DNA of 64,000 bases from Paludibacteraceae bacterium. GTDB lineage: Bacteria; Bacteroidota; Bacteroidia; Bacteroidales; Paludibacteraceae. The stretch lies in contig JAGBVI010000119.1 of assembly GCA_017630395.1 (NCBI GenBank), positions 1-64,000 on the forward strand. Direction: 5' to 3'. Below the pieces are notes generated by a model. The model was not told the origin of the DNA and did no database searches. It saw only the letters and a program-made list of their open reading frames with translations. Made by a program: the position numbers and the translations under genes. This document shows, piece by piece, positions 17,203-50,841 of the stretch (position 1 is the stretch's first letter; the number at the start of each line of letters is the position of its first letter).

Positions 17203-17394
17203 ATAAGTAGCCATTTAAATTTTATTTTAAATTTATTTTAAGTCTCTCCCTTATTTTCAGCCTCTTTGAGAGCTATTTAACCTATTTTTTATTATTCTTT
17301 TTTTAATAATAGCCCAATATTTTCCACAAAAGAATAACAAAAAAAAATTTTAAAACTCAATAGATAGGCTCGAAATAAAATTTAAACGACTTCT
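17203..17394 (-). repeat. Dispersed palindromic element, copy A (reverse orientation)
   Basis: About 192 bp. Read on the minus strand it starts AGAAGTCGTTTAAATTTT and ends in an imperfect inverted copy of the same sequence. The other copies are B (24152), C (26248), D (43326) and E (50648). The inner part pairs TTATTCTTTT with AAAAGAATAA. Where other copies have GCAT pairing with ATGC, this one has GCCT pairing with AGGC. It is the most diverged at its left end (ATAAGTAGCC). Confidence 0.8.
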
Positions 17395-17497
17395 AAATCT
17401 CAGGTGATAAACTTTTCGGGTCTACTGGATTTGCGACTACGAACTAAATTGTCAAAACCCACCTTAAATCAACTTTTAGCATCAATTGCCCTATTCT

Positions 17498-18217
17498 TCA
17501 ACTTTCAATAGGATTAAATTCATGTAAAATAAAGTTATTTGCTTTTTCCCAATCAGATTTCCTATCTACGTCAAAAATCTTTTTCATGGGATACATCCTT
17601 ATATCTAATCCACTTTCTATAAGGAACATCTGAAAATCCCTCATTCTGTTTATACCTTTTTGCTGTGCAATATGGATATATTTAGAAATATCCCGGGTAA
17701 ATCCATAAATTCCACCAGAAACATATCGGACTGATTCATCGCATTTTTGGTCAGAGATTTCAACAATATTCCAATCTAAATCACCTTTTATATAAAGGGG
17801 AGAATCGTCATCCACATAATCGGTTACAGGAAAGAGTCCACTCGAAGTTGTAGTCTTTAAACATCTAACATATTCGGCAAATTCTACCTCATCAAATATT
17901 GTATCAACAGTTGTAATACAAAACGGACAAGACAATATGGTAGGACACAAACTACATAGACTATCAAATGAACCCAGCGTACTTTTCGTAATCAATTGAA
18001 AGGGAATTGAATAATCTCTATTATCCCAATAATCCATCAACTCTCTCATCTCTTCATTAATAATAATAGATACACTTGTTGCTCCATTATCAATAAATAT
18101 ACGCAACAATCTATCAATCATCGATTCGTCTCCGAGAGTAACCAATGGTTTAGGCAACAAAATGCCATCGGCTCTTAAACGAGACCCCTCTCCTGCCGCA
18201 ATTATTCCAAAATGCAT
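17498..18217 (-). CDS. Nucleotidyltransferase family protein (sugar-phosphate nucleotidyltransferase type)
   Basis: A protein of 239 residues starting MHFGIIAAGEGSRLRA. The upstream TTG at 18223 is an unlikely start. The N-terminus is the NTP-transferase signature, (A/G)AGxGSR(L/M) followed by LPKPLVTLGDESMIDRLL, where Arg and Lys bind the nucleotide. TTVDTIFDE supplies the metal-binding Asp region and YVSGGIYGF the sugar-side loop. The C-terminus has FDVDRKSDWEKAN, like Rossmann-fold NDP-sugar pyrophosphorylases and MobA-like enzymes. It would activate a sugar phosphate in the cytosol, but the sugar and nucleotide cannot be told. It is isolated from its neighbours by spacers of 676 and 176 bp, so context gives little help. 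Confidence 0.75.
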   Translation of the reverse strand: MHFGIIAAGEGSRLRADGILLPKPLVTLGDESMIDRLLRIFIDNGATSVSIIINEEMRELMDYWDNRDYSIPFQLITKSTLGSFDSLCSLCPTILSCPFCITTVDTIFDEVEFAEYVRCLKTTTSSGLFPVTDYVDDDSPLYIKGDLDWNIVEISDQKCDESVRYVSGGIYGFTRDISKYIHIAQQKGINRMRDFQMFLIESGLDIRMYPMKKIFDVDRKSDWEKANNFILHEFNPIES

Positions 18218-18393
18218 AAACAATAATTTTCTTATTATAACAAATAAGAATCTATATTGTTTCTCTATTAAATTGGACTAAAAAAACTTTTAAAAAATTA
18301 TGATTTATGTTTACTTAAGCCTCTTATATCTCAAGATTACAAAACCCACAACAGATCAACTTAAAGTAAAAGTCGAATAAGAGCGACTTAAAC

Positions 18394-19113
18394 CTATTCA
18401 AAATTGAATGACAATACTATTAACCGAGAAGTCAACTTGGAAAGTGCATGAGTGTATTTCATATCGGAAATATCAGCAATCTCCGGTCGGTCTCGCTCTA
18501 ATACATCTCCTAAACCAAAATAAAATTTTAACTCAGGACATAATTTAAAATAGGGCAAGTAAAAATCGATTCCAACTCCAAACTCAACGCCATAATCTAC
18601 TTGTTTTAACATAATAGAATTTTCGCTATCTCTACCCATATCTACTGTCATAGCTGCCCCTGCAAGCATATAGGGGCGATAATTATGTTTTCGTTGTCCT
18701 CTAATTTTAAATGAAAGAGGAAATTCCATTATATTAGACTGAACAGTGATTGTACCATCTTCACACTCCACACCTTCAGAATCTCGAAAAACTAAATTTC
18801 TCTGATTAAAAAGTAAAACAGGGGTAAACCTCATATTTAACCAACTAAAAATACGCAAATCGGAAATTATACCGACTGAAAAACCCGGCATAAGTCGCGT
18901 ATCTTCACCAAACCACACTTTACCATCTTCATCAACAACACTAGAATGCATTGGATTAAAATCCATCATATTTAACCCCAAAATAAACCCAAAATGATAG
19001 AGTTTATTATCAACACTAACCAAATTATTCACTTGTCCGTGGGCATGTTGAGCCCTTAATGGCATTTCAACCAATGACAATAAAACTAATATGCAAAAAA
19101 CTATCTTTTTCAA
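18394..19113 (-). CDS. PorT-like outer-membrane beta-barrel protein
   Basis: A protein of 239 residues with signal peptide MKKIVFCILVLLSLVEMPLRAQ. Then comes KLYHFGFILGLNMMDFNP and a series of short amphipathic strands: ARG-flanked FTPVLLFNQRNLVF, NIMEFPLSFKIRG, YRPYMLAGAAMTVD, VDYGVEFGVGIDFYLPYFKLCPELKF and SRLIVLSFNFE. Length, the opening 'hFGf-lG-N--dF' and the ending fit PorT, a T9SS protein of P. gingivalis (about 240 residues, outer-membrane beta-barrel 2 group). PorT is often beside ubiE, which is not here, so a different small barrel of the same group remains possible. The T9SS cargo and PorP genes at the start of the window make PorT sensible. Confidence 0.65.
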   Translation of the reverse strand: MKKIVFCILVLLSLVEMPLRAQHAHGQVNNLVSVDNKLYHFGFILGLNMMDFNPMHSSVVDEDGKVWFGEDTRLMPGFSVGIISDLRIFSWLNMRFTPVLLFNQRNLVFRDSEGVECEDGTITVQSNIMEFPLSFKIRGQRKHNYRPYMLAGAAMTVDMGRDSENSIMLKQVDYGVEFGVGIDFYLPYFKLCPELKFYFGLGDVLERDRPEIADISDMKYTHALSKLTSRLIVLSFNFE

Positions 19114-19481
19114 TTCTTCCTAAATAATCTACTATGTACCAAACTTAGAACTATTAGACGATTAGTCTCTAAATTATATCCTCACGCTTCATCAAAAGTA
19201 AAAACGAAAAAACTCACTTTTTATTTTCTCTATAAAAACTTTTTTCTATTCCTACGATTTAAGAATCGCCATAAATTGCATTATATATAGGCATGGTCCA
19301 TAAATTCACCATTTATAACAACGTACAAATAGGGAGAGGACAACCCTTCCTGTACTTTTTTTGATTAATTTAGGCATATACTATTTATCAATTTATCAAA
19401 ATGCCAACTTTGGTCCAAACCTTCACCCTGCAATCTATATAAAATAAATTCAAATTTCCGAGAAATGAATTTATAAAACTC
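19114..19481. other. Gene-free stretch upstream of the PorT-like gene
   Basis: A 368 bp AT-rich spacer between two minus-strand barrel genes. No frame, tRNA, terminator-like hairpin or clear promoter match was found. I see nothing definite in it. Confidence 0.5.
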
Positions 19482-20279
19482 CTAATTGAAAGAATAACTA
19501 ACTCCAACAACACCAAATATAGGGTACATATTAAAAGTTATTGTTTCAAAATCTGATTTAAAAATATTATTAAGTCCCCAATTAAGATCTAGAAAGAGTC
19601 CCATTTTTTTGTAAACAGCCCAATCGACTCCCATAGTCAATCCCCATTGAAAACGTCTCATATCTTCAGAAAAATCAAAAGTTTGAGCATCTTCACCAAT
19701 TTCTATTTTAGCTCCGGTAGGATCTCCTTCTCTCAAATATCCATTACAAACTTCTCCAGAAAACTCTCTACTAACCAAATAGGAAAAATAGGGACCAAAA
19801 TTAACATCCCATCTATCAGAAGGATACCACTCCACAGCAACTGGAATTGTTAAAGCCGTTTGAACAGCTTTCATTTGCACATCTCCTGTCCATCGTCCGG
19901 AAACAGTACCTCCTGCATCATCAGTAATACTCATGCTATAATTTTTCACAGTTGCATCTGCCACCATACCTTTACGCTCTAATCCAACTCCAACTTTCAT
20001 TCCTACCTTCTTGTCAAAAAGGATATGGTAAACACCATGCAATGAAAGATTACACAATGGCTTAAATCCATTTATAGAGCGCATTTCTGCTGGAAGCGGG
20101 AACGGCATTGTTCCACCAATACCATAACCTAATTTAACCGAAAAAAAACTTCCTTTAGACACTGAATCTTCAAGTTCTACACTCGGTTCTGAATGATTTT
20201 CTTTAACAACCAAATCATTAGCTAAAGCAGATAAAGACAACAACATGCCAACTGCCATAAAAAATACTTTTATTTTCAT
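19482..20279 (-). CDS. Outer-membrane beta-barrel protein
   Basis: A protein of 265 residues with signal peptide MKIKVFFMAVGMLLSLSALA. The mature part is a small porin-like barrel. Strands include FFSVKLGYGIGG, LSLHGVYHILFDKKVGMKVGVGLERKG, ALTIPVAVEWYPSDRWDVNFGPYFSYLV, FQWGLTMGVDWAVYKKMGLFLDLNWGLNNIF, and the closing YPIFGVVGVSYSFN with its terminal aromatic. The long loop VCNGYLREGDPTGAKIEIGEDAQTFDFSED is of the kind seen in surface loops. It lies 7 bases after the PCMD lipoprotein gene. In Bacteroidales such lipoprotein-plus-barrel pairs are common, and I infer the two work together at the outer membrane. The function is unknown. Confidence 0.75.
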   Translation of the reverse strand: MKIKVFFMAVGMLLSLSALANDLVVKENHSEPSVELEDSVSKGSFFSVKLGYGIGGTMPFPLPAEMRSINGFKPLCNLSLHGVYHILFDKKVGMKVGVGLERKGMVADATVKNYSMSITDDAGGTVSGRWTGDVQMKAVQTALTIPVAVEWYPSDRWDVNFGPYFSYLVSREFSGEVCNGYLREGDPTGAKIEIGEDAQTFDFSEDMRRFQWGLTMGVDWAVYKKMGLFLDLNWGLNNIFKSDFETITFNMYPIFGVVGVSYSFN

Positions 20280-20286
20280 ACTTAAA

Positions 20287-21411
20287 TTATTCGCAAATTA
20301 TACTTACCTCATCTACACACAAAGTACTACCCACTGCACCTTGAAATACATCTCCTCTTCTGCTAGACGAAAAGACCAACGAGAAATTATATCCATATTT
20401 TGCCAATCGTTCCGGATCAATTGTTTTGCCATTTTTCTGTTCAAATTTTATTGAAAAAGGAAGCCATTGATTTGTCGCTTTACCATCTTCAATCTCTGCA
20501 TATAAAACCAAATAAGGACTAGATGATGAATTGGTACCATCCAACATCACTTGATTTCCGTTTTCATCTGTATTTTCATAGAACATGGCATAAATATTAA
20601 AATCATCTACACCTTCAATTTCTTTATTGTTACCATCCGTAAGCACTTCGCCCGGTTTAAACTTATACCAACCTTTTATCTCCTTAGGTACCTTTTCAAA
20701 AGGTACGCCAAAACAAGTCGCTTTCAACGGTTCTTTTAGAGCCATACCCACATTAAAAGAACCCAAAAATAAATTTCCGGGGGCAATAGGCATCCCTACC
20801 ATTGCACCAAAACTTCCTGCCGAACGAGTTGTCAATTGCAGTCCTGTTCCCTCGTATCCATCTTCAACAATAATAGTAGGATAGCCCTCAGGTCCTACCC
20901 CCGAAGCCATACTAAAACCAGGGTTCCCAGAACTCCACCAACTCATAACTTCCACATCATCTACCATTTCATATACAATTTGATATTTCCCGGAACGGTC
21001 TAAAGTATAGTAATCAAAAGAAAATTGCTCCGGCAACTCTAATGAATTATAGGAGACAAAATAACGCCTTGACCACAGTCTATCCTCAGAAGTAACAACA
21101 TACTCAACTACCTTATTATCAGAAAAGTCATGCTTTGATCCACTCTCAGGAGAAATCGTTGCTCCCGGAGTTAATGTAAATTGGGGAGCTCTCTGTTTTA
21201 AGTCTCTACCAGACTGTACTAAAATCCCGATATGATCTTCGTTACTATAGACTTTTTTTATTGTATCTCCTTGTGTAATCAATATGTCCTTATCATCAAT
21301 CAAATTACACGACAAGATGTCAGCTTCTGCATTCATCGGTTCGTCTTTAATGCACGATACAGAGGCAAGCATTAAAAGAGACGAAAAAAACACTACTCTT
21401 AAATTTTTCAT
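20287..21411 (-). CDS. PCMD-domain lipoprotein (putative carbohydrate-metabolism domain)
   Basis: A protein of 374 residues with a lipoprotein signal MKNLRVVFFSSLLMLASVSC, lipidated Cys at 20. Residues about 30-125 form an N-terminal beta domain (ILSCNLIDDKDILITQGD, VEYVVTSEDRLWSRRYFVSY), as in proteins with a preceding DUF-type beta-sandwich. From about 130 to the end is the PCMD domain: FSFDYYTLDRSGKYQIVYE, MSWWSSGNPGFSMA, EGTGLQLTTRSAG, GNLFLGSFNV, KEIKGWYKFKPGE and VDDFNIYAMFYE, ending GSTLCVDEVSIICE. The domain is an extracellular beta-sandwich frequent in gut Bacteroidota and thought to bind carbohydrate. That is family-level knowledge and not proven. It is first of a pair with the barrel 7 bases downstream. 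Confidence 0.8.
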   Translation of the reverse strand: MKNLRVVFFSSLLMLASVSCIKDEPMNAEADILSCNLIDDKDILITQGDTIKKVYSNEDHIGILVQSGRDLKQRAPQFTLTPGATISPESGSKHDFSDNKVVEYVVTSEDRLWSRRYFVSYNSLELPEQFSFDYYTLDRSGKYQIVYEMVDDVEVMSWWSSGNPGFSMASGVGPEGYPTIIVEDGYEGTGLQLTTRSAGSFGAMVGMPIAPGNLFLGSFNVGMALKEPLKATCFGVPFEKVPKEIKGWYKFKPGEVLTDGNNKEIEGVDDFNIYAMFYENTDENGNQVMLDGTNSSSSPYLVLYAEIEDGKATNQWLPFSIKFEQKNGKTIDPERLAKYGYNFSLVFSSSRRGDVFQGAVGSTLCVDEVSIICE

Positions 21412-21520
21412 ATAAATACTTCTTAATATATCGTAAGAGTCAATCTCCTACTATTTTATTTACTCATGAATCTTTCCAAGAACAGTTTCATACAAAAGTT
21501 ACCGTAATAGAAAAATCGCA

Positions 21521-21550
21521 CAAAGTTAATCAATACTTTTGAGTTCGCAA
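21521..21550 (-). promoter_or_regulatory. Promoter of the PCMD lipoprotein/barrel pair
   Basis: Minus strand TTG (21550-21548), 19 bases, then TAACTTTG (21528-21521). This is a full match to the Bacteroidota pattern. It overlaps the last codons of the upstream gene and leaves a leader of about 100 bases before 21411. Confidence 0.55.
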
Positions 21551-22339
21551 AAGAGAAACACAACCTTCACTTCGTTCAAATACATAAACTCGGTCAAAAT
21601 CACTGAAATAAAGATGAGATAATGCATCGTGAGCAGTTAATGGATCATAGTCACTTGACATCAAAAAACTATTTTGGATAATAACCAACCACTGTTCATC
21701 ACAAGCTGGATTATACTTTTTCATTTTCTTATTTTTATCCATCAACCGTTGCGAAACACTAGCTATTGACAACGGCTTAACTTTAGTGGATATCGCAGCA
21801 TACCACAAACCCTCATACCAACGACCTGTGACATTATGAATATTTATACTTTTAATTTTAGCCGGTAAATTTTCATGCCCATATTTGGATGTTCGATCAA
21901 TCGTAAACTTCAATCCGGTTGCTTCGGGAATATTTTCCTTCACAAGAGCTGCCACTTGTTGTGCTAATCCCCTTCTAATCAAATCCCTCGCATGTTCATC
22001 AACCATTGCAACAATCGGACTAATATCATCATGAAAGAGAACTTCAACAACCAACTGCAAATCACAATTCTCGGCAATAATCTTTTGAGCTTCTTCCATC
22101 AATGAGGATAAAAAATCTTCATGGGCTCTTAAATTAAACTCTTTATCTGCTCGTTCATACTTCAACTCCGTCAGTTCAATTCCTATCAGTCTACCCTCAT
22201 TTCGCAACAAAAAATCAGGCGATTCCGATTTTGACAACTCGCCTATCGGAAACGACGAATAACAAGAGCGAAACATTTTTATTACCCCCCACTCTCGCTT
22301 ATCCTTTTTTTCTTGATTTCTACTTATCTCTTCAGACAT
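21530..22339 (-). CDS. Uncharacterised protein with a PD-(D/E)xK-like nuclease motif
   Basis: A soluble protein of 269 residues, without signal peptide or membrane segment. I do not recognise the family. Residues about 32-60 read FPIGELSKSESPDFLL, a Gly turn, then GRLIGIELTELKY. That is a helix Glu, then Pro-Asp in a strand, about a dozen residues, then a hydrophobic strand with Glu, the arrangement of PD-(D/E)xK nuclease cores. The usual Lys after Glu-x is replaced by Thr (ELT). The rest is mixed alpha/beta with QLVVEVLFHD, FTIDRTSKYGHENLPAKI and WLVIIQNSF, ending in a strand YVFERSEGCVSLL. It stands alone, with spacers on the upstream side and the PCMD gene downstream. A nuclease or a nuclease-fold protein without activity are both possible. 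Confidence 0.5.
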   Translation of the reverse strand: MSEEISRNQEKKDKREWGVIKMFRSCYSSFPIGELSKSESPDFLLRNEGRLIGIELTELKYERADKEFNLRAHEDFLSSLMEEAQKIIAENCDLQLVVEVLFHDDISPIVAMVDEHARDLIRRGLAQQVAALVKENIPEATGLKFTIDRTSKYGHENLPAKIKSINIHNVTGRWYEGLWYAAISTKVKPLSIASVSQRLMDKNKKMKKYNPACDEQWLVIIQNSFLMSSDYDPLTAHDALSHLYFSDFDRVYVFERSEGCVSLLRTQKY

Positions 22340-22805
22340 TATATATTCTGTAATAAATGAATTCTACTACAAACTTAAGAAAATTTTATTCATTCGCAAA
22401 TATCAAAATAAATTTTAAAGATCAAAACCGAAATAGGCAGTAAACAAAATTGGGGATTTGAGTGAAGGAATCTCATTTTATGCAATCCTGCATACTTGAG
22501 GTAAGCTCAATAAATTCATCGTTTTAAATTTTAAAAGCATAAATCTCACATGAGAAAATTTTCAGAATTATTTAAATTCTTTCTGCAACAAACTATTAGA
22601 CAAGCAGTCACGATACACGCACAACTCCGTCCTTTCGTAGACAATTTTCTCAAATAAATTCATAAATTTATCAAAATGAATTTATAGAACCCATCTTTAA
22701 TAAATCAATAAAAATCATGATGATTACACCCCAAAAGAGCATCATTTACGTTCTGCGCAACTAATTTATCTTCAAATTAAATTATCTACACAAAAGTTAA
22801 CAACC
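22340..22805. other. Gene-free stretch upstream of the nuclease-like gene
   Basis: A 466 bp stretch. A TAAGTTTG element on the minus strand at 22377-22370 is a plausible -7 site for the gene ending at 21530. The rest is AT-rich. I found no frame, terminator or copy of the dispersed element in it. Confidence 0.45.
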
Positions 22806-23789
22806 CTACTCTTTTGTAACATAGGATTTAATAGCCTCTCTATACTTCCATAAGAGAGCTAAAAGGATAAAGATAGAATAAGCATATAAAGAAGATCTTA
22901 ACAAATTTTCCCACACTGTATTACACTCTGCCTTTACGGGTTGAAAACTGGAAATAACAGTCACAATATCCAAATTCGCAGCCATATCTACAGAAATCTC
23001 ATCTGTAATCTTAAACAACTCCTTCATATCTTGGAAAAACATTTGTTTCTTGGTAGTTATAAAAGGAGCCTTTTTCTCTCCCATTGAAGAAAACTGCATA
23101 TATTGACCGGAAGCTGGATCTTTATGGAAATACTCAACTTTTTGGAGACTATCCAAATTCATTAACGCATTATGAAACATCCATTCTTTTTCTTCTAAAG
23201 CAGCCAAACGAGCAATATTCAAAGAAACCAAATAATTATTTTTAGAAAAATATGCGATCAAAGCCTCCTGAACTTCAGGAAAATACTCTATACCCCTAAC
23301 TTTAGCCGTAATAACTAACATATTAGGGACTGAAAATGCAACTGTGTCACCCAAATCAACATCATCTTCATAATCAACAAAATCTAAAATGGAATCTCTA
23401 TTAATATCCACAACAGCATGGGTATGGAAAGAAGATATTTTAGTAGCCACCTCCATTGAAAGATCCAATGCATTAGCAAGTCCTTCAAAATCATCATAAC
23501 GAGGATAATTACTTAAATTGCGCACCATATCCTTGTAGACCATAACATCTCCGTCATTCAATCTCAGACACAAATCAGCTTTATACAATTTATTTTCCTC
23601 TCTACACTCATAAATCGTATAAATAATCATACCAATAGTGCAAATTAGAAAAAGATATTTATATTGATAAGCCAAACGCAACATTGCTCCTAACAACGAC
23701 AATAACCACTTAAATGCAGATACTATTCCTACTCCGATTTTGGACATCACTACAAAAATATTCATCTCTTGTTGATCATTACTACTCAT
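22806..23789 (-). CDS. Wzz-like chain-length-determinant family membrane protein
   Basis: A protein of 327 residues with one membrane helix near the N-terminus (about 46-62, YLFLICTIGMIIYTIYE) and one near the C-terminus (about 303-318, LYAYSIFILLALLWKY). The part between is periplasmic and largely helical (LNIARLAALEEKEWMFHNALMNLDSLQKVEYF). This two-helix topology with a coiled periplasmic body is that of Wzz/polysaccharide copolymerase proteins. Residues 64-110 (ENKLYKADLCLRLNDGDVMVYKDMVRNL) sit where Wzz proteins have their first conserved segment. There is no kinase domain. It is probably involved in surface-glycan length control, but identity is low and it is more than 18 kb from the flippase. 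It has its own promoter at 23852-23881. Confidence 0.55.
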   Translation of the reverse strand: MSSNDQQEMNIFVVMSKIGVGIVSAFKWLLSLLGAMLRLAYQYKYLFLICTIGMIIYTIYECREENKLYKADLCLRLNDGDVMVYKDMVRNLSNYPRYDDFEGLANALDLSMEVATKISSFHTHAVVDINRDSILDFVDYEDDVDLGDTVAFSVPNMLVITAKVRGIEYFPEVQEALIAYFSKNNYLVSLNIARLAALEEKEWMFHNALMNLDSLQKVEYFHKDPASGQYMQFSSMGEKKAPFITTKKQMFFQDMKELFKITDEISVDMAANLDIVTVISSFQPVKAECNTVWENLLRSSLYAYSIFILLALLWKYREAIKSYVTKE

Positions 23790-23881: not shown

Positions 23882-24151
23882 TTAATCATGTAAAGTTTTT
23901 ATTTGCACTTGAACAAAATATCCTAAAAATTGTTTGAATTAATGTAGTTGTTTAAATTTATTTTGATTTATTTAAAACGATAATAATTTTATATGACAAT
24001 TTTCACAATAAAAAAAATCGTTCTGCACAAAATCCAAGTAAGTTCAAGCTACTAAGATGGAGTTCTTGTTCAACGCCATTATTTGGTGTCAAACAAAAAC
24101 TTCACATTTAGGTAATCTCAAAAAATTTGAGTGAGATAATAAAAAGTACTT

Positions 24152-24342
24152 AGGAACTGTTTAAATTGTAATTTAAATAATTTTGAGTTTCACACTCCTA
24201 TTTTCGGCATCTTTGAGATTCTTTTTTTAACTATTTTATTATCTTTTTTAATAATAGTCCGCTATTTTTTTATAAAGGGATAATATAAATAAATTTAAGA
24301 AACTATCTCAAATATGCACGAAATAAAATTTAAACAACTTCT
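24152..24342 (-). repeat. Dispersed palindromic element, copy B (reverse orientation)
   Basis: A 191 bp element. The minus strand begins AGAAGTTGTTTAAATTTT, and the far end is the inverted form (AATTTAAACAGTTCCT). The internal landmark GCATATTTGAGA pairs with TCTCAAAGATGC. It is homologous along its length to copies A and C-E. It faces copy C across the LRR/tpx segment in inverted orientation. Confidence 0.85.
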
Positions 24343-24766
24343 TAAAATTAAATCGTTTTTTATTGGAGAAGAACAGATATGTACATCATAACCAAGTCGG
24401 CATAAACGATTGAAACAAGTTAAACTTAAAAACACTCAAAACAATTAAAAAAATTAACTTAATTTATAGCGATTACCTATAAAAGTTGTTTTAAATTTGC
24501 TAAAGAAATTATCTAATTAAATCGGTTGGTTCAGACAAGGTTTGAACACGATTATTTATGGTGTGTAAAAATTGACAAGTTGCTGACTGTTGAATTTTAT
24601 GCGTTTAATTACGAATAAAAAGAGACGGAAGTAATTTGTTTGATATGACATGCTGTCTTGTCGCTAAAACTGAATAATATAGATAAGCAAAGAGTTTTAG
24701 CGAGTTCGTTAACAACTTCACGAAAATAAGACAATATGAATTTTCAAACAAAACAGATTAAAAAAG

Positions 24767-25541: not shown

Positions 25542-25578
25542 GACATATTACAATTAAATAAAAAAAATGTTTCCAAAA

Positions 25579-26121: not shown

Positions 26122-26510
26122 AGTATTTATTCTAATGGATTATTTTGGAATATAACAATATCTGCTTAGTTTTGTTTTAAAATTAGTATTTAATAACTAC
26201 AAGGAGATAATAAAAGGTAATTGGTCTAAAGTTCGTTATAAAAATTTAGAAGTTATTTAAATTTTATTTCGAGCATATTTGAGAGAGACTTTTAAATCTG
26301 TTTTTATTCTTCTCTTGCAGAAATAGTGGACTATTATCAAAAAAGGAGAATAAAAAAAGGTTAAAAAGAATCTCAAAGGTGACGAAATTAAGAGAGTGAA
26401 GCTCTAAAATAATTTTTAATAAAATTTAAAACAACTTCTTATTATATCGAACTCTTTCATATAAATTACCCGAATTTATCAATGTCGTTCAAGCAAAATT
26501 TATTTATAAA
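26122..26510. other. Gene-free stretch between divergent tpx and the metallopeptidase lipoprotein
   Basis: A 389 bp spacer. About half is repeat copy C (26248-26439). Both flanking genes must have their promoters here, but no full match to the Bacteroidota pattern stands out on either strand. Confidence 0.5.
26248..26439 (+). repeat. Dispersed palindromic element, copy C (forward orientation)
   Basis: 192 bp from AGAAGTTATTTAAATTTT to AAATTTAAAACAACTTCT, so the two ends are inverted repeats of about 20 bases. The internal GAGCATATTTGAGAGAG faces AATCTCAAAGG on the other arm, and the centre pairs TTTTTATTCT with GGAGAATAAAAA. It is very close to copy E. Confidence 0.88.
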
Positions 26511-33946: not shown

Positions 33947-34019
33947 GCCGCTATAGCTCAGTTGGTAGAGCGCCGCATTCGTAATGCGTAGGTCGCGAGT
34001 TCGAGTCTCGCTATCGGCT
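33947..34019 (+). tRNA. tRNA-Thr (anticodon CGU)
   Basis: A 73-base cloverleaf. The acceptor stem GCCGCTA faces TATCGGC with one mismatch at the fifth pair. The D arm is GCTCAGTTGGTAGAGC. The anticodon arm CCGCA TTCGTAA TGCGT gives anticodon CGT, reading ACG (Thr). The T arm is GCGAG TTCGAGT CTCGC. CCA is not encoded. A promoter element lies 14 bases upstream and a strong terminator follows. Confidence 0.93.
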
Positions 34020-43285: not shown

Positions 43286-43325
43286 TTGTTTTAAAGTGAA
43301 AAATGATTATTTGTTCAACAAATTT

Positions 43326-43517
43326 AGACGTTGTTTAAATTTTATTTCGAGCATTTTTGCGAGCGATTTTTAAGATTATTTTTATTATTCTTTCGCCGTT
43401 AATAATACTCTATTCTCAAAAAAGAATAATAAAAATAGACCAAAAAGCGCCCCAAAGATGCCGAACAAGGAAGAGTAAAACTCAGAAACTATTAATAATA
43501 AAATTAAAACAGCTTCT
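43326..43517 (+). repeat. Dispersed palindromic element, copy D (forward orientation)
   Basis: 192 bp from AGACGTTGTTTAAATTTT to AAAATTAAAACAGCTTCT, in the 319-bp spacer between convergent genes. In place of the TTTGAGAGAGATT arm it has TTTGCGAGCGATT, and the opposing arm has changed to AAGCGCCCCAAAG, so pairing is largely kept. The centre pairs TTTTTATTATTCTTT with AAAGAATAATAAAAA perfectly. Confidence 0.87.
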
Positions 43518-43604
43518 TATAGTGAATAAAATATGAACACTATCACGCCTCTATCCGTTATGATTATTTTTTTTAATCCATCCCAAGAAACGACTGATAT
43601 AAAA

Positions 43605-44552
43605 TTATTGATAAATTATCGAATACCTGATACGATTACATACATAACCGGAAGCGTCAATAGGAATAAAATCAATATAATCTGCGTATGTCCCATCCTC
43701 TTTCTTTAACAAAGACTTAGGGAAATCAAAACTATAACCTAACTTATTAGAAGTTACAAAACCAAACACATTTTTAACATCCTCTCTTTCATCTCCGTAA
43801 TTCATCCGAAAAGCTTTATCGTTTATAACAATATACAGCTCACTTAAAGGAAGGATACCTTCAAAACTCCAACCTAAAATTGAAATTGAAGGTTCATCTC
43901 GCACCAACAAGGTTTTATTCGCTCCATCAACAACACCTGCACTTAAAACATCTACAACAAATTGAACATTAGCATATTGCTTATAGGGTTCAGAAGGTTC
44001 ATCAACGACAGACAAAAGTTTGTATTCAACAGGGGATAACAAGGAATCTCCATCCGCAGTTACACCATATAAGTTAATTGTACTCGCCCACTCACCCTGA
44101 CTATTTTTAAGAATATTTCTATCAAACAAAAAAGAGAAACCTATTTTATTACCTAAATCAAGAGATAAAAGATTAGCGACATCATCTCTAACCACGTCAA
44201 AATAGGCAGGGTAATAGTTTTCGTTAACCTCCATATATAGTTCAGACAACGGGGTTTTATTATCTATATCAACAGCCCAACCCTCTATTTCGACTGTGTC
44301 CGTTTGATCAATTATTAAATAAGGTATCGTCATAACCTTACTATTACACACGTCAGCAACTATTCCTTGCTTCCACTCAACTGTTTTAATATTCTTAATA
44401 GGCAAATCTGGTCTTGTCTCTGCATCAGACATAGTTAAAAATGACTGATTTTTTAAATCATAGACAAAATCTATAAGAATAAACATACCACCTATGACCA
44501 ATGCGGCCACAAGATAATTAAGTACATTTCTTAAAATAGGATTTATATTCAT
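43605..44552 (-). CDS. Membrane-anchored protein with two GW-motif domains (paralog 1)
   Basis: A protein of 315 residues; I know no named family. One membrane helix (about 12-31, YLVAALVIGGMFILIDFVYD) and a periplasmic part made of two similar domains, about 50-182 and 192-313. Each domain has I-(E/L)GW-(A/S), then (P)LSELY-V, an R-(D/E)DV helix start, and G(F/Y)SF-F plus an LLK-like helix: IEGWAVDIDNKTPLSELYMEV and ILGWSFEGILPLSELYIVI. Paralogs with the same plan are at 45869-46831 and 53452-54411. A recurring opening is GIVADVCNSK. The gene lies 11 bases behind the acyltransferase (44564-45610) on the same strand, so a joint role in glycan decoration is likely. The fold is probably a beta-sandwich that could bind sugar. 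Confidence 0.7.
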   Translation of the reverse strand: MNINPILRNVLNYLVAALVIGGMFILIDFVYDLKNQSFLTMSDAETRPDLPIKNIKTVEWKQGIVADVCNSKVMTIPYLIIDQTDTVEIEGWAVDIDNKTPLSELYMEVNENYYPAYFDVVRDDVANLLSLDLGNKIGFSFLFDRNILKNSQGEWASTINLYGVTADGDSLLSPVEYKLLSVVDEPSEPYKQYANVQFVVDVLSAGVVDGANKTLLVRDEPSISILGWSFEGILPLSELYIVINDKAFRMNYGDEREDVKNVFGFVTSNKLGYSFDFPKSLLKKEDGTYADYIDFIPIDASGYVCNRIRYSIIYQ

Positions 44553-44563
44553 ATCACTAACTA

Positions 44564-45610
44564 TTATTTAATTTTTGCAATTAATTTTTCAATATCATTT
44601 TGAATAGGTTTCAATAAAAAAGTCCCAATCAACCAACTAAGAATCAAACTGATAATAAAAACAATAATCATATATACATATTGAAATAAAATCTCCGGAC
44701 ACCATGTTGGAATTACAAACACATCTCGCAAAGCAAATACAATCGGGAAATGAATTAAATATATTCCAAAAGATTGAGCGCCTAAAAATCGGATAACTAA
44801 TGATGATTTCTCATTAAACTCAAATTGCATTCGGGTTAATAAAACATAAACCATCAATGAAAACAACGTAAACGAAGGCATATAATCATGGATATGATTC
44901 AAATAAGAGAATTCATACTTTTTCAATATAATAATTAAGAATGAAATCACTCCCACAATCTTTAGAATATTAACCGACTTTTTATCTGTAAAAATTTTAT
45001 CAACACAAGCACCCATATAAAAATATAAAGACCACCCAACAAAAGGATTTACCCAAGCTGCAAAAGAAGTTGAGAAGAAATATGGAGAATAAGCAATCAA
45101 ACAATTTGTCAATAACAAAATAGAGATAAAAATGATAGCACCGCAACGAGATATAGAAGAAAAAATCCTAGATGTAAAAGGTGACATCAATACATTGCCT
45201 ACTAAAACATACATAAACCACAAATGAGAGGCTTGATGACCTGCAATAAAATCAATAGTAAAATGATACAACAGCCCGGAAAAACTTCCAGTTTCCATCT
45301 TTAAATTGTATGCCGATATAAACAACATATAAACCAACATTGGTAATATCAAATAGGCAAATTTCTTTAAATAAAAACGGAAGTACTGAGAATCATCTGT
45401 AAACTCACCCTGCCGCAAAGCAAACTTACCACTTAACATAAAAAAGATTGGATTACACAAAATAAACAATGTATCCACTATTTTTATGTAGACACCCTTA
45501 ATTCCAGTATCAGGAGTTAGGATCCACAACGTATGAACTCCCAAAACAAAAACACACGCAATAACTCTGATTAATTCAAATCTACAATCCCTTTGTTTTA
45601 AATTTCTCAT
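44564..45610 (-). CDS. Acyltransferase 3 family membrane protein
   Basis: A protein of 348 residues with about ten membrane helices. The family's N-terminal pattern is CRFELIRVIACVFVLGVHT, with the catalytic His at 26. Further landmarks are HLWFMYVLVGNVLMSPF and LGAQSFGIYLIHFPIVF near the end. These proteins acetylate or otherwise acylate surface sugars, using acyl-CoA or a membrane relay. The gene is first of a pair with paralog 1, 11 bases downstream. A TACCTTTG element is at 45669-45676. The acyl group and sugar are unknown. Confidence 0.85.
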   Translation of the reverse strand: MRNLKQRDCRFELIRVIACVFVLGVHTLWILTPDTGIKGVYIKIVDTLFILCNPIFFMLSGKFALRQGEFTDDSQYFRFYLKKFAYLILPMLVYMLFISAYNLKMETGSFSGLLYHFTIDFIAGHQASHLWFMYVLVGNVLMSPFTSRIFSSISRCGAIIFISILLLTNCLIAYSPYFFSTSFAAWVNPFVGWSLYFYMGACVDKIFTDKKSVNILKIVGVISFLIIILKKYEFSYLNHIHDYMPSFTLFSLMVYVLLTRMQFEFNEKSSLVIRFLGAQSFGIYLIHFPIVFALRDVFVIPTWCPEILFQYVYMIIVFIISLILSWLIGTFLLKPIQNDIEKLIAKIK

Positions 45611-45668
45611 TTCTGTCTGTTTATAATCTGTAAAAACGTATTTTACTTGGTTAACAATAACTTGACCA

Positions 45669-45676
45669 CAAAGGTA
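45669..45676 (-). promoter_or_regulatory. Promoter -7 element of the acyltransferase/paralog-1 pair
   Basis: Minus strand TACCTTTG, 59 bases ahead of the 45610 start. It is divergent from the element at 45805. No distal half-site was found. Confidence 0.45.
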
Positions 45677-45804
45677 AAATATTTAATTGAAAGGAGGGAT
45701 AATCTGAACAAAAAAAGGAATAGTTCTTCTTTAATAATTGTACTTGAGTATTAAAATTTTAGGATATTTTATTCCCTTCTGTAGTAGGGTTTGACAAATT
45801 TTAA

Positions 45805-45812
45805 TATATTTG
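45805..45812 (+). promoter_or_regulatory. Promoter -7 element of the paralog-2/LtaS-like/lipoprotein operon
   Basis: TATATTTG followed by C, 57 bases ahead of the ATG at 45869. A TTTGAC at 45790-45795 is too close (11-base gap) to be the distal element. Confidence 0.5.
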
Positions 45813-45868
45813 CAGAGAAAAATAATAAAAAAAATTACTAAAACACAAAAAAGAAAACCATTATCATT

Positions 45869-46831
45869 ATGAATAAAAACACAATAATTAAGTGTTCTCT
45901 ATTTCTGTCTTACCTAATTCTGATTGTCACAATTATTTGCTTATGGCACCAAGAACCAACCACGCCGGAGCTCAATCTTTTTTATAATCAAGAAAATGTT
46001 TTAGCCTCACTTCCAGATTATCCTAATAGACATATTAATAAACAGAATTGGAATAAAGGGGTCAATGTAGAATGCGGAGGAAATAGTCGCTTATCTAAAA
46101 ACAAATTTATTATAATCGAACCATGCGACTCCATTAGTATATACGGTTGGGCTATAGACAATGATAGGAATTGTCCAGTAAGCGAAATATATATGGAAGT
46201 GAATAACAAATACATCAAAGGGATTTATGGACTTCCTAGACCTGACATAAAAAGAGAATTAAAAATCCAAGGCTCATCATCAATCGGTTTTGTATTCCAT
46301 TTTGATCGGACCCTTTTGAAAAACGAAAATGGGGAATATTCTCAAAGCATAAAATTTCACATGGTTGACAAAGAAGAAAAAATGACTATTTCGGCAGTGG
46401 AATATACTCCTATATATAAGAACGAAAGACCCAATCTTCCTATTAGAAAGATCAATTCTCCTCATTGGGGGAAAGGACTTGTGATAGAACGAATTTATGG
46501 AGCCACCCTTGACAATGACACTAAAACTATTACTTTAGGCGATGAAGATATTCATATTGGAGGCTGGTACTTAGATTTGGACAACAACCAACAGGTGAAA
46601 AATATGTACATTGCAGTTGGTAATTATTTTTACAAACCAAATTTCATATCAGACAGACAAGATGTTGCGAATTTATTTGGGTTAAACGCCCCTAAAAATA
46701 TAGGGTTTGACGCAATTATTCCACAATATATATTTAGAGACGAAAAAGGAAAACAATTTGAATACATTGAATTTTTTCTAGAAGATCAAAATGGATACAT
46801 TTGTGAGCCTATCAAATTCAATTTAAAATGA
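45869..46831 (+). CDS. Membrane-anchored protein with two GW-motif domains (paralog 2)
   Basis: A protein of 320 residues with one N-terminal membrane helix (about 9-25, CSLFLSYLILIVTIICLW). Two domains follow, about 58-182 and 196-319. Each has the GW motif: IYGWAIDNDRNCPVSEIYMEV and IGGWYLDLDNNQQVKNMYIAV. Each then has an Arg-x-D(I/V) turn (GLPRPDIKREL, SDRQDVANLFGL) and IGF-(V/D) with a following short helix (RTLLKNENGEY, QYIFRDEKGK). It is paralogous to 43605-44552 and 53452-54411. The stop overlaps the LtaS-like gene start as ATGA, so it is translationally coupled to it. I infer an accessory or substrate-binding partner of that transferase. The function is unknown. Confidence 0.7.
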   Translation: MNKNTIIKCSLFLSYLILIVTIICLWHQEPTTPELNLFYNQENVLASLPDYPNRHINKQNWNKGVNVECGGNSRLSKNKFIIIEPCDSISIYGWAIDNDRNCPVSEIYMEVNNKYIKGIYGLPRPDIKRELKIQGSSSIGFVFHFDRTLLKNENGEYSQSIKFHMVDKEEKMTISAVEYTPIYKNERPNLPIRKINSPHWGKGLVIERIYGATLDNDTKTITLGDEDIHIGGWYLDLDNNQQVKNMYIAVGNYFYKPNFISDRQDVANLFGLNAPKNIGFDAIIPQYIFRDEKGKQFEYIEFFLEDQNGYICEPIKFNLK

Positions 46832-48564
46832 ATACTTCCGTAAAAAACTTACTTAATAAAAATAGTACGATTCTTCTATTTTTCATATTTATTCTCATCT
46901 CGTACATTAAGTGTGTGTTATTTGAGCATGTAGTATATTCCGAGATAAATTCTCTATTTCTATGCTATCATCTACCCAAAATAGTCATTTCTATCCTAAT
47001 TGGAAGTCCTATTCTCCTTTTGAAAAATCATAGTAAATGGTATGCTCTTGTCCTATCACTGATAATTGATTGCTGGTTTGTCGCAAATTTCGTCTACAGT
47101 AGATATAATGGTTCACCTATAGACGCAATGGTACTTAGCATGGCAGGAAATATGGATGGTTTCTGGAATAGTGTATTTCTCTTCTTAGAATTCAAGATAG
47201 ACATCTTACCGTTTTTACTTACTTGTTCACTCATCCCATTCCTATTCTTGAAATATCAACAAAAAGAGATTACCACTTTTATATGCGTGCTGCTAAGTTT
47301 ATATCCTCTCTCTTTCTTATCACACTACATGACAGTCAGAGAAAAACAATATTGGACGCCAGAAACCAAATTAGAACCAACAAATTTTGGGAAAATATTC
47401 CATATTGCAACTAACGTTTCAAACCCCAATGAAAATGTATCTCATATTTCATATAAATCAGATGCTGAAGATAACTCAGGAATTCACCTGCTAATTAATG
47501 ATTTAATAGTATTATCAGCTCTACAAAAAAACAACAATGTAAAACAATTAACAGAAAATGAAGTAAATTTATTGCATAAAGAGGGGTACTTCTCTGATTT
47601 ATCAGATTTAAAAAAATTTGACTCCAAACTAATAATTATTTTAGTTGAAAGTATGGAAAGTTGGATTCTTACAGAAGAAGCCATGCCCAATCTATGGAAT
47701 TACATGCAAAAACACAACCATATTTTTGCCTCCAAAATGATTTCGCAAACTCGTTTCGGAGGTTCAGCCGATGGACAAATGATTCTAAATACAGGTCTTC
47801 TCCCTCTTTACTATGGAGCTGCATGTTATCGTTTCCCGGGCAATACATATCCTGCAATTGCAAAACTAGCAAAAGGAAAATCTCTTTGCATACTACCTCA
47901 CAAATTGGATGTATGGAATCAAGTTGGCATGAGTTTGGCCTACGGATATACAGACAATGTTTCTTTGGACCTTGATGACGAAGTTCTATTCCGAGAACTG
48001 AATAAATACATAGAAAAAGATGAATATCAAGTGATTCAACTTCTAACAATGTCAACACATGCCTATTTTGATGCAGTTTCAGCAAAATCTAAATTAAATA
48101 CTGATCCAGATATGCCTTTATACGAACAAAATTACCTGAAAAGTTTTCACTACGTTGATGAACAAATGGGGAAATTTTTAAGCAAAATAGACTCTTCTGA
48201 ATCCTTTAAAAATCTGACAATAGTTATTACCGGAGATCACACAATTTTTCCGAAAGACAAAAGAGATGAATTAATGGAATACTCTAAATCCCATAACAAC
48301 GTATACAATCCGGAAGAATATACTTGCGCACTTATTCTATCGAACAAATTGGATAAACAGACTCACATAGACCAAGTCAGTTATCAAATGGACATTTACC
48401 CCACTCTAACCTCCTTGTTAGAATGTGGATATAAAAATTACAAAGGAATTGGAAAAAACTTACAAGAACGCAAGTTAACTCCTCAAGAAATAGAATACAA
48501 CAATGAAATAGAGTATTCTAACCTAATTATAAGTAGTAACTATTTTGGCTTGAATAATGATTAA
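46828..48564 (+). CDS. LtaS-like sulfatase-fold phosphotransferase (phosphoglycerol/phosphoethanolamine transferase type)
   Basis: A protein of 578 residues. About five membrane helices fill the first 165 residues. From about 265 is an alkaline-phosphatase-superfamily domain: LIIILVESMESWI (metal Glu at 274), ISQTRFGGSADGQMILNTG, LTMSTHAYFD, and VITGDHTIF (Asp470, His471). The layout is that of LTA synthase family proteins, which move phosphoglycerol (or phosphoethanolamine in relatives) from a phospholipid to a glycan. The residue in the nucleophile position appears to be Ser313 in FGGS, where LtaS has Thr. It lies in an operon with GW paralog 2 and a phosphodiesterase-like lipoprotein, overlapping both. 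It probably decorates the surface polysaccharide; the donor head group is unknown. Confidence 0.8.
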   Translation: MNTSVKNLLNKNSTILLFFIFILISYIKCVLFEHVVYSEINSLFLCYHLPKIVISILIGSPILLLKNHSKWYALVLSLIIDCWFVANFVYSRYNGSPIDAMVLSMAGNMDGFWNSVFLFLEFKIDILPFLLTCSLIPFLFLKYQQKEITTFICVLLSLYPLSFLSHYMTVREKQYWTPETKLEPTNFGKIFHIATNVSNPNENVSHISYKSDAEDNSGIHLLINDLIVLSALQKNNNVKQLTENEVNLLHKEGYFSDLSDLKKFDSKLIIILVESMESWILTEEAMPNLWNYMQKHNHIFASKMISQTRFGGSADGQMILNTGLLPLYYGAACYRFPGNTYPAIAKLAKGKSLCILPHKLDVWNQVGMSLAYGYTDNVSLDLDDEVLFRELNKYIEKDEYQVIQLLTMSTHAYFDAVSAKSKLNTDPDMPLYEQNYLKSFHYVDEQMGKFLSKIDSSESFKNLTIVITGDHTIFPKDKRDELMEYSKSHNNVYNPEEYTCALILSNKLDKQTHIDQVSYQMDIYPTLTSLLECGYKNYKGIGKNLQERKLTPQEIEYNNEIEYSNLIISSNYFGLNND

Positions 48565-49414
48565 CAAGAAGTTTTATAATCTTACAATTTTCATCATAAC
48601 TATCTTCTCTCTAATCGGTTGTGAGCAAGAGAATCCATTCGAAGATACAGTTATTGTTGTAGACACAACAATTGTAGAACTCGATACATCTATTGTACTC
48701 ATTGACACAACCATTGTTACTATTGACACAACTATTATACAAGATTGGACTCTTCAATTAAATGCTATTGAATATCCCAACTCAAAAATATGGTATCATG
48801 GAGCCAATACAATCGAAAAAGCAGTAGAAAAAAGCAAGAAATTTGAAGGAATCGAATTAGATGTAAATTTTGATCGCAACAGCAATAATCTTTATGTTTG
48901 TCACAACATTGAAGATACAATTATAGGGCTAACGCTTGAAGAGTGGTTTGATGCACTGCCAGAACCATCCTCCAACTACTTTTGGATAGATTTTAAAAAT
49001 CTGCATATAGACTATGTACATTTAGCATGTGAAAAAATATTATCTATAATAAACAAATACAACCTAAAAAATCGAATATGGGTTGAATATTACAATATCC
49101 CAGAATTAGAAATTGTAAAACAATATGGAATCTATACTATTCTAACAGTAGAAAACTCAGAATACCAACCATATAACTTATTTATTTGGCAATATTTTTT
49201 ACTAGGTAAAATATCTCAATTAAAACCAGAAGCCATAGGGTGCGACCATACCATGTTTAACAATCTAACCAATTTTTTTTCTGACTACCATATTTTCTTA
49301 TGGCATTCTACTGTTATATACACCGATGAATATGCATCAGAAACTCGTAAAATGTGCCAACATCCGGCAGTAAAAGTTGTTTTAGTGGACTACGAAGAAC
49401 CTATAAGCTACTAA
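48557..49414 (+). CDS. Lipoprotein with a GDPD/menorin-like phosphodiesterase domain
   Basis: A protein of 285 residues. Lipoprotein signal ending FSLIGC (Cys22). A linker at 29-63 repeats a DTT(I/V)V-type unit four or five times (TVIVVDTTIVELDTSIVLID). The rest resembles the PLC-like TIM barrels of the GDPD and FAM151/menorin families: WYHGANTIEKAVEKSKKFEG, then IELDVNFDRN (E100, D102), LYVCHNIED (H116) and YFWIDFKNL. His81, Glu100, Asp102 and His116 would be the metal and acid-base residues. The start overlaps the LtaS-like gene by 8 bases, so a linked role is likely, for instance turnover or trimming of the phosphoglycerol made by that enzyme. The family call is by pattern only. Confidence 0.55.
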   Translation: MINKKFYNLTIFIITIFSLIGCEQENPFEDTVIVVDTTIVELDTSIVLIDTTIVTIDTTIIQDWTLQLNAIEYPNSKIWYHGANTIEKAVEKSKKFEGIELDVNFDRNSNNLYVCHNIEDTIIGLTLEEWFDALPEPSSNYFWIDFKNLHIDYVHLACEKILSIINKYNLKNRIWVEYYNIPELEIVKQYGIYTILTVENSEYQPYNLFIWQYFLLGKISQLKPEAIGCDHTMFNNLTNFFSDYHIFLWHSTVIYTDEYASETRKMCQHPAVKVVLVDYEEPISY

Positions 49415-49513
49415 AGAGAATTCACGAAATACACCCCCATTTAAAAGAATTCAATAACTTTATATCCTCTACAAAAATAGTTTCAGACTGACGTGTGTAG
49501 GTAAATTTAACGT

Positions 49514-50320
49514 TCACTTATACCGAATACCCGCTATTGTTCCTTCAATTATGGACTTTATTTTTTCCCACTTATCATCTTGATAAACCAAAATATTTAA
49601 TGGTGTATATAAATAGTAAATTTTCAAAAATAAAAATTTATGAAAATAGTTTGGATACTCTTTCCATAAGACAATTTGAGACATTACAGTATCATGTAAC
49701 CTCTTAGGAGAGTATGAAATAATTCTTTTATTTCCCTTCTTATATGTATTCCCAAAATTTTGATTTAAAATTGCTCCCCCAATTTTAAAAACCTTTCCCC
49801 CGTTTTGATTTATCTTATATCCGAAATCAAGGTCAATTCCATCAACAAAAAATTCTTGTCTAAATCCTCCTAATGAAATCGATTTTTTAAGATCTATAAT
49901 AGAGCCAGAAGTGATAACATATCTGCATGGCTGAAAATTACCATATTCTATCTCTGACTTATTAATTTCAGGACCCGTCTGAACTAAATCTAACTCTTTA
50001 TCATACAAAGACTTAACTTGTTCTAAATAATATTCAAAATTTTCAAAGACACTATCTTGATCCATCGTCAACAAGTGACTAAAACCCTCTTGATTACAAT
50101 ATGCCACAACTTGATTTAATGAATACGAAATCCCACAATTATTATCTTCTCCTAAATATACAATCTTTTCATCTATATCAACCTCATGGAGAAGTCGATC
50201 TTTTATCGGTGTATTCTGCCAAATTACAATTTTCTCAACATAATCATAATAAGCTAAAACATTCCTTTTCAACAATTCTAAATCTGGATAATAAGTTATA
50301 ATACCGGCACACAGCTTCAT
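49514..50320 (-). CDS. Glycosyltransferase family 2 protein (rhamnosyltransferase-like)
   Basis: A protein of 268 residues. The start MKLCAGIITYYPDLELLKRN, then KIVIWQNTPIKDRLL, NNCGISYSLNQVV and HLLTMDQDSVFE are the landmarks of the WbbL/RfbF type of GT2 enzymes, where D-Q-D-S stands for DxD. FRQEFFVDGIDLDFGYKINQNGGKV is the base-binding region. It is a cytosolic transferase adding a sugar to the lipid-linked repeat unit; rhamnose is a guess from family resemblance. It converges with the lipoprotein gene and is divergent from the MBOAT operon. A promoter element lies at 50346-50353. Confidence 0.82.
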   Translation of the reverse strand: MKLCAGIITYYPDLELLKRNVLAYYDYVEKIVIWQNTPIKDRLLHEVDIDEKIVYLGEDNNCGISYSLNQVVAYCNQEGFSHLLTMDQDSVFENFEYYLEQVKSLYDKELDLVQTGPEINKSEIEYGNFQPCRYVITSGSIIDLKKSISLGGFRQEFFVDGIDLDFGYKINQNGGKVFKIGGAILNQNFGNTYKKGNKRIISYSPKRLHDTVMSQIVLWKEYPNYFHKFLFLKIYYLYTPLNILVYQDDKWEKIKSIIEGTIAGIRYK

Positions 50321-50345
50321 AATTCAAATTTTATAAATTACAAAA

Positions 50346-50353
50346 CAAATATA
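50346..50353 (-). promoter_or_regulatory. Promoter -7 element of the GT2 gene
   Basis: Minus strand TATATTTG, 26 bases ahead of the start at 50320. Confidence 0.45.
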
Positions 50354-50445
50354 CAATTTTTTAATTTATTCCATATTAACAATTACTTTTAAAGTAACAA
50401 AGATAAATTTCATCAAAATAAATTTAATTTATATCAAATAAATTT

Positions 50446-50453
50446 TAACTTTG
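50446..50453 (+). promoter_or_regulatory. Possible promoter -7 element of the MBOAT operon
   Basis: TAACTTTG followed by C, 427 bases ahead of the MBOAT start. If used, the transcript would pass through all of repeat copy E. No distal half-site is clear. Confidence 0.35.
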
Positions 50454-50647
50454 CAGAATAATAAATAGAATATTTTAATGTAATTTTTGCAGTCTAATTA
50501 TGATTGTTGTTAGAATTCAAATTAATTATACTAACTAAACAACAAGCAGACATCAGAACTGATTTAATAAAATAATTAAGTACAAAAACGTCCACAATAA
50601 ATTAAAAACATAAAACGTAGATTACGAAAATCACATTAAAAATAATA

Positions 50648-50841
50648 AGAAGTTGTTTAAATTTTATTTTGGGCATATTTGAGAGAGATTTTAAATTTAT
50701 TTTCATTATCCTTTTGTACGAAATAGTAGATTATTATCAAAAAAGAATAATAAAAACAGATTAAAAAGAATCTCAAAGATGCAGAAAAAGAAGAGTGTAA
50801 AGCTCAAAATCAATTTAATAATAAAATTTAAAACAGCTTCT
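50648..50841 (+). repeat. Dispersed palindromic element, copy E (forward orientation)
   Basis: 194 bp from AGAAGTTGTTTAAATTTT to AAATTTAAAACAGCTTCT. The arms GCATATTTGAGAGAGATT and AATCTCAAAGATGC pair; the centre pairs TTTTCATTATCCTTTT with AAAAGAATAATAAAAA with few mismatches. It is closest to copy C. It lies just ahead of the MBOAT gene. AATAAT occurs on both sides, which may be a target duplication or just AT-richness. Confidence 0.88.

Follow-up and report, generated by a model that had tools for sequence, protein, structure and literature searches.

The five inverted repeats of about 190 bp found in a stretch of a Paludibacteraceae draft genome are very likely copies of a miniature inverted-repeat transposable element (MITE) with a partner insertion sequence (IS) of the IS5 family, and it is likely, though unproven, that selection acts on the fold of one single strand, as RNA or as single-stranded DNA. 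A non-autonomous, IS5-linked MITE with a selected single-strand fold is, in our view with high confidence, the best explanation of the observations taken together. The stretch, here called the window, is the 64,000 nucleotides at positions 1 to 64,000 of contig JAGBVI010000119.1 (contig C112 of the genome numbered G000 here; 3.57 Mb in 128 contigs). Across families of the Bacteroidales the interior fold persists despite drift in its sequence and in the terminal repeats, and one strand pairs better than the other. The common view of bacterial MITEs is that they are short-lived deletion derivatives whose interiors are disposable. If the present reading is true, selection maintains a single-stranded structure in at least some of them, and the question of why MITE transcripts fold becomes directly testable.

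Copies, target duplications and empty sites

An earlier note on this DNA had described five copies, two on the − strand and three on the +, and the window sequence bears this out: the copies lie where they were placed and align end to end. The boundaries given then hold for the copies, except that the outermost A or T belongs to a duplicated TNA target, which makes the element 1 bp shorter on each side. The element proper runs from GAAG to CTTC and measures 187–192 bp in the window, with the ends GAAG(T/C)TGTTTAAATTT...AAATTTAAACA(G/A)CTTC forming terminal inverted repeats of about 19 bp. Allowing at most two mismatches, five occurrences of the 16-base end motif were counted in the window, where shuffled sequence would give 0.68.

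Copy 1 (17207–17393, − strand) is the most degenerate. It had been placed from 17203, but its degenerate end begins at 17207; it has TAA at 17204–17206 and 17394–17396, and scores 119.7 bits with R1, a covariance model whose 15 training copies come from the own genus and genome G020. Copy 2 (24153–24341, − strand, 128.7 bits) lies between TTA at 24150–24152 and 24342–24344, copy 3 (26249–26438, + strand, 157.3 bits) between TTA at 26246–26248 and 26439–26441, copy 4 (43327–43516, + strand, 171.8 bits) between TTA at 43324–43326 and 43517–43519, and copy 5 (50649–50840, + strand, 151.6 bits) between TAA at 50646–50648 and 50841–50843. Matching 3-bp TNA flanks are thus present at all five, in + strand letters. 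GC content is 22–28% in own-genus copies and up to 42% in other lineages. The element falls within the size and composition usual for a MITE (50–1000 bp, AT-rich, no transposase gene), and no reading frame is maintained in it.

The target-site duplication that the earlier note proposed to look for was also found outside the window. Identical 3-mers flank 43 of the 47 distinct copies from the own genus and G020 for which both flanks are available (TTA 24, TAA 17, TGA 1, TCA 1), and 43 of 59 copies from other lineages (TAA 20, TTA 20, CTA 1, TCA 1, ATT 1); 84 of these 86 identical 3-mers are TNA. When the comparison is shifted three bases outward, agreement falls to 1 of 68 in a set of copies with all lineages mixed. 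A single TNA can serve two neighbouring copies, as in L002 and L008.

The comparison with relatives, also suggested by the earlier note, gave an empty site at the one locus tested. There, a LolA-like gene (named by eye) and the next gene are separated by −2 to 9 bp, as projected, in all 12 congeners that have both flanking genes, whereas in G006 the same pair is 219 bp apart and the interval is essentially the element (copy L096) with TAA on each side. Two more congeners gave no match to this locus. The counterpart in G000 is split between contigs C51 and C9; since both end in the element, the insertion is apparently common to G000 and G006. Copy L096 was used because the loci of relatives corresponding to window copy 5 do not share its upstream gene order. 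Placement is also mostly intergenic: with a simple caller of open reading frames, no overlap of more than 20 bp with a frame of 90 residues or more was seen for 50 of 54 copies in the group of the own genus and G020 and for 23 of 25 copies from elsewhere.

The outcome that these five copies are the only ones in the genome can be set aside. A DNA search of the own genome gave at least 46 matches (40 of 297 candidates scored), and R1 gave at least 150 scored places, all 150 scored candidates passing an E value of 0.01. The figure of 150 is not a clean copy count, because a longer variant and fragments at the ends of contigs are among the places. Nine of ten own-genome places that were fetched end at a contig end, and the match to the element reaches that end. 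The element thus breaks the assembly, which suggests that many of its copies are near-identical and hence recent; the practical effect is that it fragments the assembly of its own host. By DNA query the element is patchily distributed: among 61 genomes, the own genome included, it matched only G000, G006 and G020, and weakly G030, and among 16 genomes of the own genus it was found in G000 and G006 only.

A composite of about 393 bp was also seen, in which a second inverted-repeat insert of about 200 bp, with ends AGGTG(A/G)GTTCTATAAATTCA, interrupts the right arm of the MITE's hairpin. The insert is always at one position, and the composite is present at several sites (L301–L305, L307 and L310, on G000 contigs C25, C53, C77, C27, C15 and C44 and G006 contig C40). 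Its TNA flanks match in five of the seven copies measured.

The probable IS5-family partner

The earlier note had suggested a MITE moved by a transposase encoded elsewhere, and that a transposase with matching ends be sought. An IS5-family IS with closely similar ends was found. A PF01609 search of the own genome gave nine places. The copy on contig C8 is bounded by GAAGCTGTTTAAATTTAATT and an inverted GAAGCTGTTTAAATTTATCT, is 924 bp long in total and has TTA on both sides; the first 16 letters of its ends are those of the MITE right end. Its transposase is open for the first 149 residues, which match NF033580 (IS5 family transposase) at 119.7 bits against a cut-off of 110, and also PF13340 and PF01609. 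Among its relatives some have stop-to-stop frames of 254–276 codons, several of them between ends of the same type. The best full-length transposase relatives among named genomes are in metagenome-assembled Paludibacteraceae genomes from horse faeces and in Candidatus Physcocola equi (79–89% identity), in a search from which records very close to the window may be missing. It is on these relatives that the placement of the host near the Paludibacteraceae rests.

The partner IS is about 925 bp long in the Paludibacteraceae, with seven near-full-size copies of 898–928 bp (L047, L105, L106, L109, L110, L114 and L115). A TNA target is the rule for the ISL2/IS1031 subgroup of the IS5 family. In the own genus the right end of the MITE resembles the transposase-proximal end of the IS, down to a small subterminal hairpin. 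The correspondence is also seen in other lineages: in G061 the MITE and the resident IS both use GAAACTGTTTTGAATT as an end, and in G342 an IS fragment has an end (GAGTCTGTTTAAATTTTACCAAAAT) that almost equals the MITE right end. Identity to a known IS family, which had been named as a refuting outcome, holds for the ends only, as expected of a MITE.

Several observations weigh against a simple pairing of MITE and helper. Matching TNA flanks are present at just seven of 12 two-ended IS copies and differ at five (L106, L114, L116, L137 and L172); this set includes the own genome and some shortened copies, and leaves out L296 as an apparent duplicate of L116. In the own draft genome no intact cognate transposase was detected, and the one copy found there is broken by stops. 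A transposase relative was detected at an E value of 1e-8 in five of the 15 MITE-bearing genomes searched and was absent at that threshold from the other ten, one of them G389 with its 34 matches. It follows that many copies persist with no detected helper, with the proviso that a diverged helper could be missed. The transposases of G254 and G175 are more distant (55% and 38% identity), and MITE-type ends were not seen with them; what lies nearby is scattered hits with six mismatches in 18 to the MITE end.

Against these points stand the terminal repeats, the TNA duplication, the empty sites, the intergenic placement and the IS with similar ends, all of which agree with the earlier suggestion of a MITE moved from elsewhere; the movement itself we infer. 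As judged from the sequences, an IS5-family transposase would move the element in trans.

Some further loci involve transposases or the genomes just mentioned. In G389, a genome of five contigs, the 34 matches include loci L235, L248, L255 and L266–L272, and no transposase relative reaches an E value of 1e-8. At L043 (G000:C68:29106-32621) a decayed IS transposase (DDE_Tnp_1, with stops) lies slightly more than 1 kb from tandem MITE copies. At L042 (G000:C11:1-2769) the contig starts with a piece of the MITE, and about 90 bp after it begins a DDE transposase frame of 356 residues that looks intact; a second MITE-type end was not seen there.

A fold shared across the Bacteroidales

A profile match in a locus flanking an IS of Bacteroidales bacterium SW299 (G061) proved to be a 192-bp element with different letters and the same shape. 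It has 24 matches in that genome by DNA search, of which 20 were fetched (89–100% identity, one partial). Searched with R1, 15 of 393 Bacteroidales genomes gave matches, the own genome and 14 others. The matches are convincing in 12 of the others, which makes eight families when the own family is counted; those in G364 (L243, E 0.006, with an unlike interior) and G213 (E 0.0018, borderline) were not counted. In a draw of 395 genomes across the phylum, some of them Bacteroidales, only the own genome matched. Both wide searches used stricter filters. In the 16 positive genomes the numbers of matches include at least 128 in G006, 46 in G342, 34 in G389, 16 in G254 and 13 each in G055, G293 and G334, all of these being lower bounds because G061 gave three matches in that search and 24 by DNA search. 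A search of plasmids and phages with one G342 copy as query gave no match.

The predicted architecture has three parts. P1 is the helix formed by the terminal repeats, P2 is a long hairpin with internal loops and a tip stem, and P3, present in many copies, is a small hairpin before the right end. The blocks within the element that the earlier note had described as facing one another do align, in all five window copies, as the arms of one hairpin, and an alignment that includes G020 shows this for four of the five. The tip stem of P2 closes a loop of four bases, in most cases CGGG or UGGA, and its letters differ by lineage around the same loop: AATAG/CTATT, TTTAG/CTAAA, GATAG/CTATC or GACAG/CTGTC. 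In copy 3 the tip is ATAGTGGACTAT (26323–26334, + strand), with the stem AUAG/CUAU and the loop UGGA; the consensus tip letters are missing from three of the five window copies (those at 17k, 43k and 50k).

In A7, an alignment of 38 diverse sequences made with R1, 90.2% of 2305 cells pair and both sides change in 56 of 65 pairs. The covariation score is 0.427, compared with 0.140 (standard deviation 0.007) for shuffled alignments and at most 0.102 for pairings slid along the sequence. The 19 pairs of the terminal helix are paired in 96.1% of cells over the 38 copies. All this has been kept while the sequence changed: in the 35 A7 sequences from other lineages, the terminal repeats have a mean identity of 83% to those of an own-genus copy, and the hairpin one of 57%. 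Single-sequence folds, which use no model, were counted for the 57 distinct copies whose tip is recognisable: the tip stem is paired in all of them and P1 in 55. Another 11 copies, three of them from the window, lack the tip letters and are not in this count. For L006, another copy of the own genome, the RNA fold has a z score of −8.4.

Further evidence comes from the mismatches. A palindrome with a role only as double-stranded DNA would be expected to show G.T and A.C mismatches equally often. The two were counted in self-alignments that give them the same score, over 77 distinct copies from 12 lineage groups; these are a selection of the copies, with identical ones entered once. There were 330 G.T and 183 A.C mismatches, with G.T in excess in ten of the 12 groups. 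In 73 of the 77 copies the + strand is predicted to fold more stably than the complementary strand, and the four exceptions all belong to the group of the own genus and G020. No p-value is given, because copies within a group are not independent and the groups share ancestry.

The case for a selected fold has its own weaknesses. The A7 counts lean towards the model, because the alignment was fitted to R1. A plain MAFFT alignment of 16 sequences, made without the model, agrees more weakly: seven of 27 predicted pairs, which lie in P1 and the tip stem, change in both partners, and the long P2 stem is missing from the consensus fold. Covariation within the own genus is slight (three of 61 pairs), and with G020 added it amounts to six of 65 pairs and a score of 0.099 against 0.078 shuffled. 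G.T does not exceed A.C in G030 (4 and 5) or in G389 (40 and 41). The element also shows no orientation bias to genes: 43 copies of the own genus and G020 with both neighbours are distributed as ++10, −−11, −+18 and +−4, and 20 copies from other lineages, likewise unbiased, as ++5, −−6, −+6 and +−3. Fold selection, if real, is therefore likelier to serve the spread or tolerance of the element than a fixed role towards a neighbour, and a role in the messenger RNA of a neighbour is not favoured.

Two elements depart from the common pattern. G364 has a 243-bp element (L243:338-580) with similar terminal repeats and TTA flanks; its interior, which holds several hairpins, is unrelated, and it may be a second MITE belonging to the same IS group. 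In G175 (L250:1501-1708) a small palindromic insert adjoins the hairpin tip, and the outer fold is still predicted.

Explanations of the fold and comparison with known elements

The mechanism that we propose would run as follows. The DDE transposase of the IS5-family IS would bind the MITE ends in trans and insert the element at TNA. A transcript reading through it would fold into a closed unit, which could let the host tolerate an intergenic insertion, and those copies whose fold is intact would survive as the source of the next ones. What the fold does is likewise inferred. Our tentative proposal, attractive without being one we would lean on, is of a mobile structured RNA: an element mobilised by IS5, whose + strand fold (terminal-repeat helix, long hairpin with a YGGR tip and subterminal hairpin) is under selection in at least eight families including the own one, acts in trans or as a self-insulating transcript, and outlasts its helper transposase.

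It is possible, if rather doubtful, that the hairpin is instead kept at the level of DNA: the + strand would fold while single-stranded, as it might be on the lagging strand, which would pair the ends and aid the transposase or excision. The terminal repeats are the outer helix of the same fold, and the fold is kept whatever the orientation of the insertion, as expected for a role in the movement of the element itself; the strand asymmetry would fit single-stranded DNA too. However, the IS copy of the own genome has the end letters and the small subterminal hairpin and not the long hairpin, and single-stranded substrates are not known for IS5-family DDE transposases. RNA would seem somewhat favoured over single-stranded DNA as the level at which the fold acts.

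A different account needs no selection at all. Template switching during replication repairs imperfect palindromes (quasipalindrome correction), and in an element that is nearly a palindrome, as this one is, mutation by this route could match the pairs and produce compensated changes. We consider this unlikely. No strand preference is expected of it, yet G.T mismatches are in excess and the + strand is the more stable in nearly all copies; the bases next to the tip stem remain unpaired in many lineages (L247 is an exception), and the tip loop is conserved in most.

It is very improbable that the interior is a present or former small protein gene, in which the tip AAT AGY GGR CTA would be codons for N-S-G-L. 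The variable letters Y and R would then fall at third codon positions, and the tip frame is open for at least 40 codons in some copies of G389, G061, G348/G411 and G254 (one copy in G254). But stops recur at the same places in the own genus, G342, G254/G334 and G055, the own-genus copies with stops being those translated, a set from outside the window; the frame shifts among copies, no common start codon was seen, and the two varying tip letters change as a pair, to give CGGG or UGGA. Protein coding was therefore rejected as the main reading, on the recurring stops and frame shifts. A host-domesticated regulatory repeat of the REP, ERIC or terminator kind, rather than a transposable element, is hardly credible: the hairpin fold and the placement mostly clear of open reading frames would suit it, but the target duplications, empty sites, patchy presence, assembly-breaking copies and unbiased orientation do not. 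The earlier note had offered a structured repeat of the REP/ERIC kind as an alternative to a MITE; the structured part is sound, since the interior hairpin is kept across the Bacteroidales with compensating changes, and the element is nonetheless a MITE.

Two narrower roles were also rejected. An intrinsic terminator was considered, on account of a T run after P3 in some own-genus copies; other lineages have no T run. A cis-regulatory role in a set orientation was discarded, orientation to genes being unbiased.

ERIC, Correia/NEMIS and RUP are small intergenic mobile repeats with folding transcripts and, like QMITE2, have been described mainly within one genus or species. The present fold differs in spanning several families at about 57% interior identity, with compensating changes. 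From ERIC and REP as usually described the element differs in size, TNA target and IS5-type ends, a comparison of descriptions and not of sequences. The transcripts of QMITE2, and of MITEs generally, fold stably according to a review (PMC10969869).

The closest parallels in host and partner are the MITEs of Porphyromonas gingivalis (BrickBuilt, MITE239, MITEPgRS/464 and MITE700), which have no transposase and have terminal repeats like those of the IS5-family ISPg1/3/4/9 (PMC4596501). They share with the present element Bacteroidales hosts and the IS5 link, and the end of ISPg4 and MITEPgRS/464, GAGACTGTTGCA, has the same first nine letters as the IS ends in L052 and L113 (GAGACTGTTTAAA). The ends diverge after those nine letters, and it is by description rather than sequence comparison that the elements are set apart: in the accessible portion of that report the ends are of about 12 bp in most tabulated rows, some elements have internal tandem repeats, and no conserved fold is described (PMC4596501). 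MITECca01 of Cardinium, also in the Bacteroidota, resembles the present element in size and abundance, with about 240 bp and 169 mostly intergenic copies derived from a resident IS; it differs in belonging to the IS982 family and in its absence from other sequenced Cardinium strains, and the sections of its description at hand do not mention a hairpin (PMC9769881). The ISL2/IS1031-group elements ISCaa2/3/6/8, from the Bacteroidota, are given as 893–991 bp with transposases of 264–275 residues (PMC3196728), close to the near-full-size IS copies here; the MITE differs from them in having no gene and an unrelated long hairpin. Two further papers served as background only (PMC5771137, PMC12730594). 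The literature search found no paper evidently on the present element, which is weak evidence given its partial coverage of journals.

No Rfam family reached its gathering score on the element, either in the window or in 11 loci; at lax thresholds those loci gave a transfer RNA (tRNA) outside the element in L079 and other matches below the gathering score. The sole Rfam match in the window at gathering score is a tRNA gene at 33947–34019.

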